Origin: Azospirillum oryzae
GTDB lineage: Bacteria > Pseudomonadota > Alphaproteobacteria > Azospirillales > Azospirillaceae
Direction: 5' to 3'
Assembly (NCBI RefSeq): GCF_900177515.1
Contig: NZ_FXAK01000007.1
Span: 1,720,501-1,784,500, forward strand
DNA length: 64,000 bases
Part shown: in pieces, positions 26,704 through 31,416 of the stretch
Layout of the letters: every line of letters begins with the position of its first letter
Position numbering within the stretch: the stretch's first letter is position 1
Notes under the pieces: generated by a model
Databases searched by the model: none
The model's input: the letters and a program-made list of their open reading frames with translations, nothing else
What the model was told of the DNA's origin: nothing
Translations under genes and position numbers: made by a program

Positions 26704-27028
26704 GGCGCTGCGGTGGCGTCCCTGCGGTGGCGGCGTTGCGCACGGCCCGGATGGCGGCGCGGGTCAGGCGGAACCGGTCCGGCCGGTGAACCGGACGGAT
26801 GATTCCACAAGATCAAGAGGGGCGGATAGCATCGGGCAACCCGCCGGGTCAAGAGGCTCACTGCCGCGGACGCGGCTCCGGGCGTTGCCGCAAAAAGAAA
26901 ACGGGCCGCGGAGGGGGTCCCCCGGCGGCCCAGTTCCGCGACCCGTACGTGCCCCGGATCGGTCGATGCTCTTTGACCTTACGCTGAATTGACCTTCGTC
27001 GGCTTACGCCGAATTGACCTTCGTCGGC
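26704..27028. other. Intergenic region between yfgM and the NarL-type regulator
   Basis: This 325-bp gap holds the yfgM operon promoter region, the minus-strand terminator at 26892-26931 and part of a 25-bp tandem repeat. No gene is supported in it. Confidence 0.6.
26892..26931 (-). terminator. Rho-independent terminator of the NarL-type regulator
   Basis: On the minus strand a long GC hairpin (GGGCCGCC arm near 26931 pairing with the GCGGCCC arm near 26903, with G/C-rich inner pairs) is followed by GTTTTCTTTTT. It lies about 100 nt after the regulator stop codon. Confidence 0.75.
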
Positions 27029-27035
27029 TTACGCC
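26986..27035. repeat. Two exact 25-bp tandem repeats covering the regulator stop codon
   Basis: Copies at 26986-27010 and 27011-27035 are identical. Each holds the palindrome CGGCTTACGCCG or most of it, and the inner copy contains the stop codon of the minus-strand regulator. A degenerate third copy is seen at about 26972-26985. Confidence 0.85.
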
Positions 27036-27682
27036 GACATGGCGGCGGCGGCGATGACCGCCTGGGTGCGGTTCTTGACGCCCAGCGACTTGAAGATGGC
27101 GGTGACGTGGATCTTCACCGTGCCTTCCGACAGGCCCAGTTCATAGGCGATCTGCTTGTTGGACTTGCCGAGGCGGAGGCATTCCAGCACCTCGCGCTGG
27201 CGCTGGGTCAGGCCGTAGCCGGCGCTGCGGTCGGACATGTCCACCGTGCGGCGGCGCGGCGCGGCCTCCATGCTGGCGGTGAGCGCGCCCGGCGGCAGGT
27301 AGATGCCGCCCGAGAACACCAGGTTCAGGGCGCCCATCATCACCTTCACGCTGCTCGACTTCGGGATGTAGCCGGTCGCGCCATGATCGAGCGCGCCGCG
27401 GATATCGCCCAGAGCCTCCGACGCGGAGATGACCACCACCGGCACGCCCGGCTGCAGCGCTTGGATCTCGCGCAGGCCGTCGAAGCCCGGCCAGTTCGGC
27501 ATATGCAGGTCCATCAGGATGATGTCGAAGGTGCTGCCGGCCCGGCACTGGTCCAGCACCTCGTCGAAGGTCCCGGCCTCGACGAAGCTGGCCTCGCCCT
27601 GCAGTTGCTCCAGCAGACGCCGCAGGCCTTCGCGAAACAGCAGATGGTCGTCCCCGATCAGAATCTTCATGGTCCCCGTCAT
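27029..27682 (-). CDS. NarL/FixJ-family two-component response regulator
   Basis: This is a LuxR-type output response regulator of 217 residues (213 if the ATG at 27670 is used). The receiver domain is intact: the acidic pair in ILIGDDHLLFREG, the phospho-acceptor Asp in IILMDLHMP, Ser in VVVISAS and Lys in GYIPKSS. A LuxR helix-turn-helix follows (LTQRQREVLECLRLGKSNKQ and LSEGTVKIHV). No sensor kinase lies nearby, so it is an orphan here. Upstream, several palindromes may be its own or other regulators' sites. The frame continues upstream of 27682 but without homology. Confidence 0.9.
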   Translation of the reverse strand: MTGTMKILIGDDHLLFREGLRRLLEQLQGEASFVEAGTFDEVLDQCRAGSTFDIILMDLHMPNWPGFDGLREIQALQPGVPVVVISASEALGDIRGALDHGATGYIPKSSSVKVMMGALNLVFSGGIYLPPGALTASMEAAPRRRTVDMSDRSAGYGLTQRQREVLECLRLGKSNKQIAYELGLSEGTVKIHVTAIFKSLGVKNRTQAVIAAAAMSA

Positions 27683-27888
27683 CCTCGCTCGCCGACCCTT
27701 GCCGGTGCCGTCCGCTTGCGGACGACCGCCCGTCAGGGCTGTTGTCTGTTGTCCGGCACGCCCCCGCGGCACCCGGATCACCACATTCGCGCCGAATACA
27801 TGGCTTGGTGGTCGATTGGTCTGCACGCCCTCTGCGGACATCGGCCGGAAGACCGTCTGCCGTTGTGGGCTTGTTCTTCGCTGTGTTG

Positions 27889-28017
27889 GGTATCTGATAC
27901 CACGATCGGTCGGGACCCTGTATCCCGACAAGGGCCATAGGTCATTCGAAGCCGGCATGCCCCTTCGAGGCACCTTTGGTCATGGTACGACCAAGAGTTG
28001 CCTCCGCCAAAGGTCAT
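27889..28017. promoter_or_regulatory. Cluster of inverted repeats upstream of the response regulator
   Basis: Three perfect dyads occur within 130 bp: GGTATC-T-GATACC (27889-27901), GTCGGGA-N7-TCCCGAC (27909-27929) and ACCTTTGG (27972-27979) with CCAAAGGT (28007-28014). GGTCAT recurs at 27940, 27978 and 28012, roughly every 34-38 bp. NarL-type regulators bind inverted heptamer-like sites, so autoregulation or control by the divergent LuxR gene is plausible but unproven. Confidence 0.5.
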
Positions 28018-28240
28018 AGTTTTTTCTGCGCGTGCGAATAGAGTTATCGCGCGAGCCCATCGGATTCACTTGGCCCGATCGGGATCATTCGAAAAGAGAC
28101 CTGTTGTCTCCATTAGCGACGGGAATTTTTCTGGAACCTTGCCATCTTTGCGGCGTTCGTGTGGCAAGGATTTGGTTAATCCCGATTCGGCCGCGCAGAA
28201 GAGTAAGGAATCCAGCAACCAAACCGAAAGGATAGCCCTG

Positions 28241-28300
28241 ATGGATGCCTGTACCAACGCGCATTCCCCTGTGACCCGCTCAGCACACATCATTCCATAG
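28241..28300 (+). CDS. Possible 19-residue small ORF (leader peptide-like)
   Basis: An ATG at 28241 with AAAGGA about 8 nt upstream opens a 19-codon frame (MDACTNAHSPVTRSAHIIP). It is about 385 nt upstream of the plus-strand LuxR gene. No conservation can be judged here. It could be a chance frame. Confidence 0.2.
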   Translation: MDACTNAHSPVTRSAHIIP

Positions 28301-28684
28301 GTGTTACCGTTTCGAAACCTGAGGCGACCAACAAGGAGACGATAAGCGATCTTGGCTGATCATCCATCGCCTGATTTACGCGGAGCACCGTTCATTTCTA
28401 AATCACGCGGTGCGAACAGGACTTCCCCGATCCCGACGAAGGGGGAGTTTGCAGTCCAGGCGGAAATACTTCGATGCCCACAATAATTTTCCGGATGACG
28501 TGAGTTTTATGATGACGTGCCTGGGCCGACCGGCCGGTTCCTCTTCAACCCTTAGACGCAGGCGGCAATGCCCTGAGCCGGGCCGGCCGTGGATGCCTCC
28601 TCCAGACAGAGCTGACCCATGCACACACACCATGAGTACGCCCATGAGAAAGCATCTCACCAGACCCGCAACGCGGTGACTCCC

Positions 28685-29359
28685 ATGCACGTCTGCCTGA
28701 TCCTCGACAACAACGCGCTGACCGAGAACGTGGTGCAGCAACTGGACCGTGGCGGGCGCCACCGGGTCACTGTCCTGCACGACATCGGGGAGCTGACCCA
28801 GAGCGCGCTGACGCCGGATGCGATCCTGATCGGGCTGCAGCAGTTCACGACTCTGCGCGAGAACGAACCGATGGTCTATCTGCGGCTGTCCCGCCGCTCG
28901 CGGATCGTCGTCGTCCTGTCCTCGCGGGAGTTGCTGGACGCCGCCCATATCCTGGCCTTCGCCGACGCGTGGGTGTTCGAGGATCTGAACGTCGACCGTA
29001 TCAACGAGCTGCTGGACCTGGGGCTGGAAGGCCACTGCCTGATGCCCAAGCAGTTCCTGTCGCGCCTCGGCGTCGACGAGATCCGGCTGACGCTGCTGCC
29101 GCGCCTGTCGGATCCGGAGTTCGAGACGCTGCGCCTGCTGGGCGAGGGCATGAACAACCGGACCATCGCCAACGCGCTGGACCTGTCGGAAGCGGTCATC
29201 AAGTCGATGGTGCGCAGCGTTCTGTCCAAGCTGCACTTCCGCAACCGGACGGAAGCCGGCGTCTTCGCCGCCCGGCAGCAGGGCGCCCTTGAGCAGGCGC
29301 GGAGCGGCATGACCCCGCCGCACGTCCACGCCGCCGCCGTCCGCCGGGCCGGGGTCTGA
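28685..29359 (+). CDS. LuxR-family regulator with a degenerate receiver domain
   Basis: The C-terminal half is a good LuxR/NarL helix-turn-helix (LSDPEFETLRLLGEGMNNRT and LDLSEAVIKSMVRSVLSKLH). The N-terminal 115 or so residues look like a receiver fold but lack its chemistry. Only one acidic residue follows strand 1 (LILDNN), the phospho-Asp position after DAILI is Gly or Leu, and the conserved Lys is replaced (WVFEDLN). It probably works without phosphorylation. The ATG at 28685 is preferred, with GGTGA 5-6 nt upstream. An in-frame ATG at 28619 would add a His-rich 22 residues. Length is 224 residues. Confidence 0.85.
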   Translation: MHVCLILDNNALTENVVQQLDRGGRHRVTVLHDIGELTQSALTPDAILIGLQQFTTLRENEPMVYLRLSRRSRIVVVLSSRELLDAAHILAFADAWVFEDLNVDRINELLDLGLEGHCLMPKQFLSRLGVDEIRLTLLPRLSDPEFETLRLLGEGMNNRTIANALDLSEAVIKSMVRSVLSKLHFRNRTEAGVFAARQQGALEQARSGMTPPHVHAAAVRRAGV

Positions 29360-29406
29360 CGATCCGGCCTTCGCCGCCAAGCCAGTCCTGACCCGGCGAA
29401 CCGGGA

Positions 29407-31416
29407 TCAGCCAGCCAGGCGGCGCCCGGCCATCGCCTCTTCGAAGCGGTCGAAGCGGGCGTCGAAGGCCTGACGGTCGATCTCGCCCAGCCGGAACCGG
29501 ACGCGCACCACCCCCTCCTCCCGGTTGAAGGCGTCGAAGGGCAGCGCCACGCCCAGGCTGTCGAACAGCAGGGTGCCGCGGGCGCCGACGGCGTCGGCCT
29601 CGCCCAGCGCGGCGCCGTGGCGCGAGATGTCTAGCAGCCGCACCGTCAGGCGCCCTTCCACCCCCTCCACGACGCAGGGCGCCTCGACGCGATAGCGCGG
29701 CACGCTGCGGCGGTCGACGTCGTCGGTCGCCGTACGCACGGCGCGGACCAGCACATGCATCAGTTCGTCGATGCTGTGGGTCACTTCCGACGCCCCGGCG
29801 CGCAGCATATCGGCGCGCTCCTCCGTTACCTTCGCCTCGCGCGACACCTCGTCGATTCGGGTCGAGACGTCGGTCGCCGCCCCGGCGGTCTGGCCGACAT
29901 TGCGCGAAATCTCCTGGGTCGCCGATGCCTGCTGCTCCACCGCGGCGGCGACCGTGCCGGAAATCGCGTCGATCTCGCCGATGGTGCGGCTGATGTCGCG
30001 CACCTCCTCCACGCTGCGGGCGGTGACCGACTGGATTTCGGCGATCAGGCGCGAGATCTCCTCGGTCGAGCGCGAGGTCTGGTTGGCAAGGTTCTTCACC
30101 TCGCCGGCGACGACTGCGAATCCCTTGCCCGCCTCCCCGGCCCGCGCCGCCTCGATGGTGGCGTTCAGCGCCAGCAGGTTGGTCTGGGCGGCGATCCCCT
30201 GGATCAGTTCCGCCACGTCGCCGATCCGGCTTACCGCAGAGGACAGCGACTCGATGGTGGTCTCGGTCCGGTTGCTGGCGGCGACGGCGGCGCGGGTCAC
30301 CCCGGCGGCATGGCCGACCTGATTGCCGATCTCCTCAATGGACGCGGAGAGCTGCTCGGCGGCGGAGGCCACCGCCTGGGCGTTGCTGAGCGCCTGGGCC
30401 GCGGCGGCGGCGACGTTCTGGGCATTGGACCCGACCAGCCCGGCCGATGTCGCCATGGCGCCGGCATTGCGGTCCATCTCCTGCGTGCGGGCGGCGACCC
30501 GCTCGACGGCGCTGCGGCTTTCCTGCTCCACCGTGTCGGCCATCGACTGCAGTGCCTTGCGCTTCTGCGCCTCGCCCTGGATGCGCTGATGCTCCTGCTC
30601 GGCGCGCAGACGCTCCGCCTCGGCCATGCCGTCGCGGAAGACGAGGACGGAGCGTGACATCGCGCCGATCTCGTCCAGACGGTTGGCGCCGGCGACGCTG
30701 GCGGTCAGGTCGCCGGAGGACAGCGCGGTCATCACCTGGCTGAGCTGGCCCAGGGGGCGCAGCAGCCGGCGCGACACCAGATAGCCGGGAACGGCCAGCA
30801 CGACGGCGCAGAGCACCACCAGCATGGTGGCGAAACGCATGCTGTCGTCAAAGGTCTTGAACACCTCCGCCTTCCTGATGCCGACAAAGAGGATGCCGAC
30901 CGGCTTGCCGGCCGCGTCCTTGATCGGGTCATAGGCTGCGTAATAGGGCTCGCCCAGGATGTCGACCATGCCGCGGAAGGGAACGCCCTGACGCAGCACC
31001 GCGTCATAGGCCGGCCCCTGCGCCAGCGTGGTGCCGACGGCGCGGCTGCCGTCGGGCTTGGTGACGTTGGTGGCGATGCGGCGGTCGCCCAGGAACAGCG
31101 TGGCGGTGCCCCCGGTGATGCGCTTGATCTTGTCGACGACGAGGTTGTTGTCGTTCATCACGACGCCGTCCAGCAGCAGCTTGCCGTCGGCGACGGAGAA
31201 CTGGCCGCCGCGTTCCTGCAGCGACGACCATGCGATGTCCATGCTGAGCCGCTGCATCTCGATCGCCTGCCGCTCCAGGTCGCGGACGATCACCTGACCG
31301 ATCGCGAACAGGATGGCGGTGCTGAGGACCAGCATGCCGAAGAGGTTCAACAGAGTGACTTTCGTGGAGATCGAAAGCCGGCCGACAAAGGCGCGCAGGG
31401 CGTCCATGAGTGCCAT
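29407..31416 (-). CDS. Methyl-accepting chemotaxis protein with C-terminal PilZ domain
   Basis: This is a transmembrane chemoreceptor of 669 residues. It has TM1 (about 20-42), a periplasmic single-Cache-like sensor (about 45-190), TM2 (about 193-215), a HAMP domain, and a cytoplasmic signalling region whose tip is [20 protein letters not shown]. After the signalling domain it carries a PilZ domain (about 570-660) with [10 protein letters not shown] and [10 protein letters not shown], the two c-di-GMP contact motifs. Azospirillum Tlp1 is a known receptor with this architecture. No che genes are nearby. ATG 31416 or 31407 may be the start. Confidence 0.93.

Follow-up and report, generated by a model that had tools for sequence, protein, structure and literature searches.

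The gene flcA of Azospirillum is preceded by a conserved stretch of ~57 bases that probably belongs to a promoter-operator on the minus strand, consisting of a core promoter, an activator box that abuts its -35 region and a distal box (we put the probability of this reading at about 0.68). The stretch lies in the window, by which we mean the whole 64,000-nucleotide piece of Azospirillum oryzae DNA that was analysed, and its core occupies positions 27892-27948 of the minus strand. It sits beneath a cluster of repeats that a sequence-only reading of the same DNA had singled out, and this cluster is real, but mostly a local accident that overlies the older conserved element. The finding points to genuine regulatory DNA, that of a gene both known and important, but the dyads on which that earlier proposal was built are largely lineage-specific.

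The repeat cluster (27889-28017) is located inside a 948-bp intergenic region between divergent genes, of which the one on the minus strand (27029-27670) encodes a response regulator of the NarL/FixJ type and the one on the plus strand (28619-29359) is of the LuxR type. It had been placed in front of the response regulator; it does lie upstream, but at a distance of 219-347 bp from the ATG (27670, minus strand). When inverted repeats are required to be perfect, with arms of at least 6 and a loop of at most 10 nucleotides, the cluster contains exactly three, at 27889-27901 (GGTATC-T-GATACC, arm 6, loop 1), 27909-27929 (arm 7, loop 7) and 27976-27994 (TTGGTC/GACCAA, arm 6, loop 7), together with three plus-strand copies of GGTCAT that start at 27940, 27978 and 28012. 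Both features are thus present as described and exceed what shuffling gives. Dinucleotide shuffles hold a mean of 0.30 dyads and reach three in 0.38% of 5000 trials (P 0.0038), and three plus-strand GGTCAT copies were reached in 0 of 5000. Against real sequence the dyads are less rare, as 2.0% of overlapping 129-bp stretches of the window contain three or more, and there is no second site in the window with three GGTCAT, on either strand, within 130 bp. The box cluster is therefore a stronger signal than the dyad count.

It is very improbable that the dyad cluster itself is the functional element, whether as a multi-dimer operator, a cruciform or an RNA hairpin. The density of dyads above shuffles (P 0.004) speaks for such a role, but in an alignment of the 41 Azospirillum regions that carry both genes (A1) the three dyads are perfect in only 6, 2 and 3 regions, respectively, window included, stretches of equal dyad density recur in the window as described above, and an Rfam scan of the window gave 0 matches at gathering score. 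By this comparison, the dyad-cluster reading appears largely refuted by lack of conservation, and neither the dyads nor the middle GGTCAT box, which is exact in only 10 of the 41 regions (window included), find support as functional units.

Phylogenetic footprinting, which the sequence-only reading had suggested as a check, did reveal conservation in relatives, in the form of a core footprint common to 45 Azospirillum genomes. A search with the intergenic DNA found matches in 42 of the 45 (the window's own genome included), often through the leader of the divergent gene only, and the intergenic DNA of G024:C22 is 96% identical to that of the window. The core block is free of gaps over 68 columns in all 41 aligned sequences, though the bases between its blocks partly vary. 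In the 24 remoter genomes, identity to the window is 0.74 for the core and 0.89 for positions 27921-27948, but only 0.33 in the remainder of the cluster (27949-28017) and 0.38 when the intergenic region is taken as a whole.

A model of the core (R1), built from sequence only with 41 of the 45 Azospirillum genomes, detects one strong copy per genome in 45 of 45 (E 2e-20 to 4.4e-7), with the next match at E 0.02. The 41 model-building regions match R1 by construction, and the independent finds are those in the four genomes outside the model set, G011, G014, G016 and G041 (E 1.1e-11 to 4.4e-7). The core adjoins flcA in the 41 aligned loci, where 66-268 nt separate its left end from flcA with ~3 more to the ATG, and it is situated 105-117 bp from flcA in the other four genomes. 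When R1 was run on 36 other genomes of the family, 31 of which have a FlcA match at E <= 1e-50, the best match had E 0.013 and none among the matches listed adjoins a FlcA match. Because the core is kept in G011, G016 and G041, where the divergent gene was not found at E <= 1e-20, the element goes with flcA. The proposal that this region acts as regulatory DNA of the NarL-type gene is supported by these comparisons.

The NarL-type regulator is FlcA, the published regulator of flocculation and cyst formation, because its length, the end points of the published deletion and four published restriction fragments all fit. In A. brasilense Sp7, FlcA is described as a LuxR-UhpA family response regulator of 215 aa that governs flocculation and cyst-like differentiation, with a deletion of residues 16-212, an upstream PstI-StuI 1.5-kb fragment, a downstream NcoI-NotI 1-kb fragment, and BamHI-BglII 4.6-kb and HindIII 9-kb fragments (PMC4264754). 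The window's gene (27029-27670, minus strand) encodes 213 aa with a receiver (Pfam PF00072; Asp54 in the alignment) and a LuxR/GerE HTH (PF00196), whereas genomes of the A. brasilense group have a protein of 215 aa. This is also the length, from the corresponding ATG, of the orthologue in G004 (L106), and StuI cuts it at codon 15 and NcoI at codon 212, which matches the deletion of residues 16-212. With PstI at -1451, NotI at +1654, BglII at -3230, BamHI at +1274 and HindIII at -4141 and +4638, the PstI-StuI, NcoI-NotI, BamHI-BglII and HindIII fragments of G004 come to 1.49, 1.02, 4.50 and 8.78 kb, versus the published 1.5, 1.0, 4.6 and 9 kb. Among the 13 A. brasilense-group genomes mapped, all published sites fit in G004 only, and this genome is presumably that of Sp7 or of a strain near Sp7. 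The two nearest FlcA paralogues in G004 were rejected as flcA, since the restriction map does not fit them.

Of the named FlcA proteins matched by the 80 loci kept, that of A. oryzae COC8 is nearest to the window's, with 100% identity, and the copy in G076, which we take to be R. centenum, shows 64.95% identity. The regulator frame breaks early in only one of 43 loci, L028 (another, L020, is cut by the locus end); in L028 (G037) the break comes after ~146 codons while the core element and the neighbouring gene are intact, and it may be an assembly error. Many Azospirillum genomes also hold a FlcA paralogue of ~62-65% identity (L199, L149 and similar loci), where there is no second strong match to the core model. 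A published table counts flcA among the orphan regulators and gives its identity in R. centenum as 65% (PMC4618731).

Read towards flcA, the element begins with AATGACCTATGGCCCTTGTC and ends with CCGAnnGTGGTA, and the 17 nucleotides between them vary in part in sequence but not in number. Two blocks within it may be promoter elements, namely a putative -35-like CTTGTC (27927-27932, minus strand), in which each position (A1 columns 42-47) is invariant or conserved in at least 90% of sequences, and, 17 nt from it, a putative -10-like region CCGATCGTGGTA (27898-27909, minus strand; block TACCACnnTCGG). The spacing between the two is constant in the 41 aligned genomes and also, as counted by eye, in the 4 others. 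Columns that stay free of gaps despite variable bases between the blocks are as expected of a -35/-10 pair; since two of the inter-block columns never vary and others hardly do, a bipartite protein site would give the same picture.

The boxes differ in how widely they are kept. Box 1 (AGGTCAT, 27939-27945, plus strand), a few bases upstream of the -35-like hexamer, contains a GGTCAT that is exact in 35 of 41 aligned regions, box 2 (GGTCAT, 27978-27983, plus strand) is the lineage-specific middle copy, and box 3 (AGGTCATA, 28011-28018, plus strand), the distal box 72 bp from box 1, has an exact GGTCAT at the corresponding alignment position in 13 of 41, with the window included in both counts. 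Within 200 bp upstream of the core, AGGTCATA occurs exactly in 19 of 45 genomes (0.2 expected from simple shuffles) and with at most one mismatch in 40 of 45 (5.3 expected), counts in which related genomes are not independent and some best matches lie elsewhere than at box 3 (at box 2 in L012 and L015; near the core in L022 and L039). A forward distal box is found at a near-constant distance in 22 of the 39 genomes measured, 70-73 bp start to start (in the window 72, from 27941 to 28013); in the remainder it is inverted and closer (6), irregular (2), or the word was not found (9). Several genomes of the A. brasilense group have a poor box 3 or none, and the copies that do occur in this group are inverted and ~one turn closer.

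The constant spacing, the single strong copy per genome and the location ahead of one gene are suggestive of a core promoter that adjoins an activator site. In the promoter-operator that we favor, the core would pair the -35-like CTTGTC with the -10-like CCGAnnGTGGTA 17 nt away, and transcription would start a little left of 27898, to give a leader of ~65-270 nt depending on the species. An activator that recognises AGGTCAT(A/T) would bind the box abutting the -35 region, which is the class II position, and also the second box 72 bp further upstream, a distance near seven helical turns at which two bound dimers could share one face of the helix. Additions or coincidences in the window's own species group would then account for the middle box and the three perfect dyads. 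The promoter function of the element, its leftward direction and the activator role of its boxes are what we infer from these patterns of conservation, and the element would be of an ordinary kind, newly delimited by comparison. Against the promoter reading, another intergenic block, at the leader of the divergent gene, is as conserved in the 24 remoter genomes as the best part of the core. A sigma-70 consensus scan of 26900-29500, which does not cover other promoter types, returned 0 promoter sites, and the -10-like region bears no likeness to TATAAT. Two terminator-like sites were detected by a terminator scan, no more than shuffles give.

A coding role for the core, as an N-terminal extension of the flcA frame or as a short peptide, is scarcely credible. 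In the window, the flcA frame stays open as far as 27973 and so makes an open frame of 314 aa, and when the 68-bp core is taken by itself, 38 and 37 of the 41 sequences have two minus-strand frames open, which is compatible with a short peptide. However, only 5 of the 41 keep the flcA frame open across the whole core, and the published FlcA length of 215 aa equals that of the G004 gene from the ATG used here (PMC4264754), so an N-terminal extension through the core is refuted.

The word GSCATAGGTCAT is in excess in the 45 genomes (138 vs 17), and 37 of the 138 places, as counted from rows, are the flcA site itself, which leaves 101 elsewhere. When 20 of these 101 were read, 6 fell in a hairpin loop and 11 inside likely coding frames, with no assignment made for the other 3 (L213, L216 and L224), and from this sample the excess was taken as not regulatory and rejected as a sign of a regulon. 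The hairpin is strong and terminator-like, carries CCATAGGTCATAA in its loop (L208, L212, L215, L221, L223 and L225), and lies between two genes that we take to be rpsB and tsf.

The protein that would read the boxes is most likely some other, not yet named regulator. Autoregulation, in which FlcA dimers would bind the AGGTCAT boxes, is conceivable but doubtful. FlcA is a LuxR/GerE-type regulator, the full core is found only at its own gene, and box 1 in reverse (GACCTAT) agrees at 6 of 7 positions with the NarL heptamer consensus, TACYYMT. This possibility is weakened because FlcA matches from other genera lack enrichment of the box. In the 400-bp regions upstream of the 26 best of these, which include non-syntenic ones and are taken as matches rather than established orthologues, there is no exact AGGTCATA (0.22 expected), and only 3 regions have a copy with at most one mismatch (5.2 expected), although 5 of 10 other-genus proteins compared (L079, L086, L088, L097 and L101) have the same recognition-helix stretch as Azospirillum FlcA. 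Further regulon sites are also not evident in the genomes.

The second candidate named by the sequence-only reading, the divergently encoded LuxR-type protein with a pseudo-receiver, is a distinctly improbable binder of the boxes. Its gene lies divergently beside flcA, in synteny, both in G014 and in all 41 aligned loci from Azospirillum, and its HTH is conserved, but the protein is disfavoured as a necessary binder because the element outlives it, with both core and box 3 kept in G011, G016 and G041. At the loci of genus g13, G045, G051 and G052, the gene pair is kept with no R1 match beside flcA (G081 lies outside the R1 search). It is also rather unlikely that a dedicated Azospirillum regulator or alternative sigma factor reads the core plus the distal box with flcA as essentially its only target; if this were true, Azospirillum would have a master switch of its own by which cells enter the flocculating, cyst-like state. 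Across the 10 genomes searched, WAGGTCATAG shows no genome-wide enrichment (63 matches vs 94 for the reversed word), so no regulon emerges that would support a dedicated activator.

The divergent neighbour (28619-29359, plus strand) is not part of the element. Pfam recognises only GerE in its product, and in alignment the third strand ends in a Gly instead of the phospho-Asp, while a single Asp is left of the acidic pair; judged by alignment, the pseudo-receiver label holds. Its AlphaFold model (mean pLDDT 72) gave a Foldseek match to NarL (1a04) with E 1e-9 and a TM of only 0.39. VpsT, whose c-di-GMP motif is W[FLM][TS]R, was among the structural matches, and the sequence FLSR at residues 146-149 (29054-29065), between receiver and HTH, is reminiscent of that motif. 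The G076 orthologue (L205:5351-6034) keeps the Asp (ILID, versus ILIG in the window), and its acidic pair is also degenerate. In G014 (L077), which retains the flcA element, the match to this protein has an internal TGA, so that the gene may be broken in this genome.

Across Azospirillum, the leader and first codons of the pseudo-receiver gene (28556-28684) show strong conservation of their DNA sequence. In this leader, GTGGATGCCTC could pair with GAG..GCATC.CAC across the start codon, and compensatory change was seen in 0 of the 26 pairs predicted for an RNA fold. A second conserved block (28294-28410) is perhaps the promoter of this gene, and in A. brasilense-group genomes contains TTGACG-N16-TATCGT followed by TTGATTTACG. 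Beside the gene pair, 29407-31416 encodes a chemoreceptor that has sCache_3, HAMP and MCP signal domains, and its C-terminus gives a weak match to PilZ that stays under the curated cut-off.

FlcA decides the switch of Azospirillum from swimming cells to clumping, cyst-like cells on roots (PMC4264754). Azospirillum is a crop inoculant. Among the papers listed in literature searches, nothing came up on what controls flcA itself, and neither a study of its promoter nor a mapped start turned up. A base-level footprint common to the 45 genomes examined offers a short target for finding the upstream signal, and is a sound lead on how flcA is turned on rather than a new kind of element.

Operators of the NarL/FixJ family consist of heptamer sites in an inverted 7-2-7 arrangement. 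The element resembles them in having short boxes of 6-8 bp in front of a NarL-family gene, but its boxes do not follow that inverted arrangement and show no enrichment ahead of the FlcA matches from related genera. Class II activator-dependent promoters have a conserved box next to the -35 hexamer at fixed spacing, and the element is like them in carrying a conserved box beside a -35-like hexamer at fixed spacing, here with a second box upstream, whereas its -10-like region is not TATAAT-like. The protein and a knockout have been described for flcA of A. brasilense Sp7, whereas the footprint presented here comes from comparison alone, and the gene downstream of this footprint is the orthologue of that flcA (PMC4264754).
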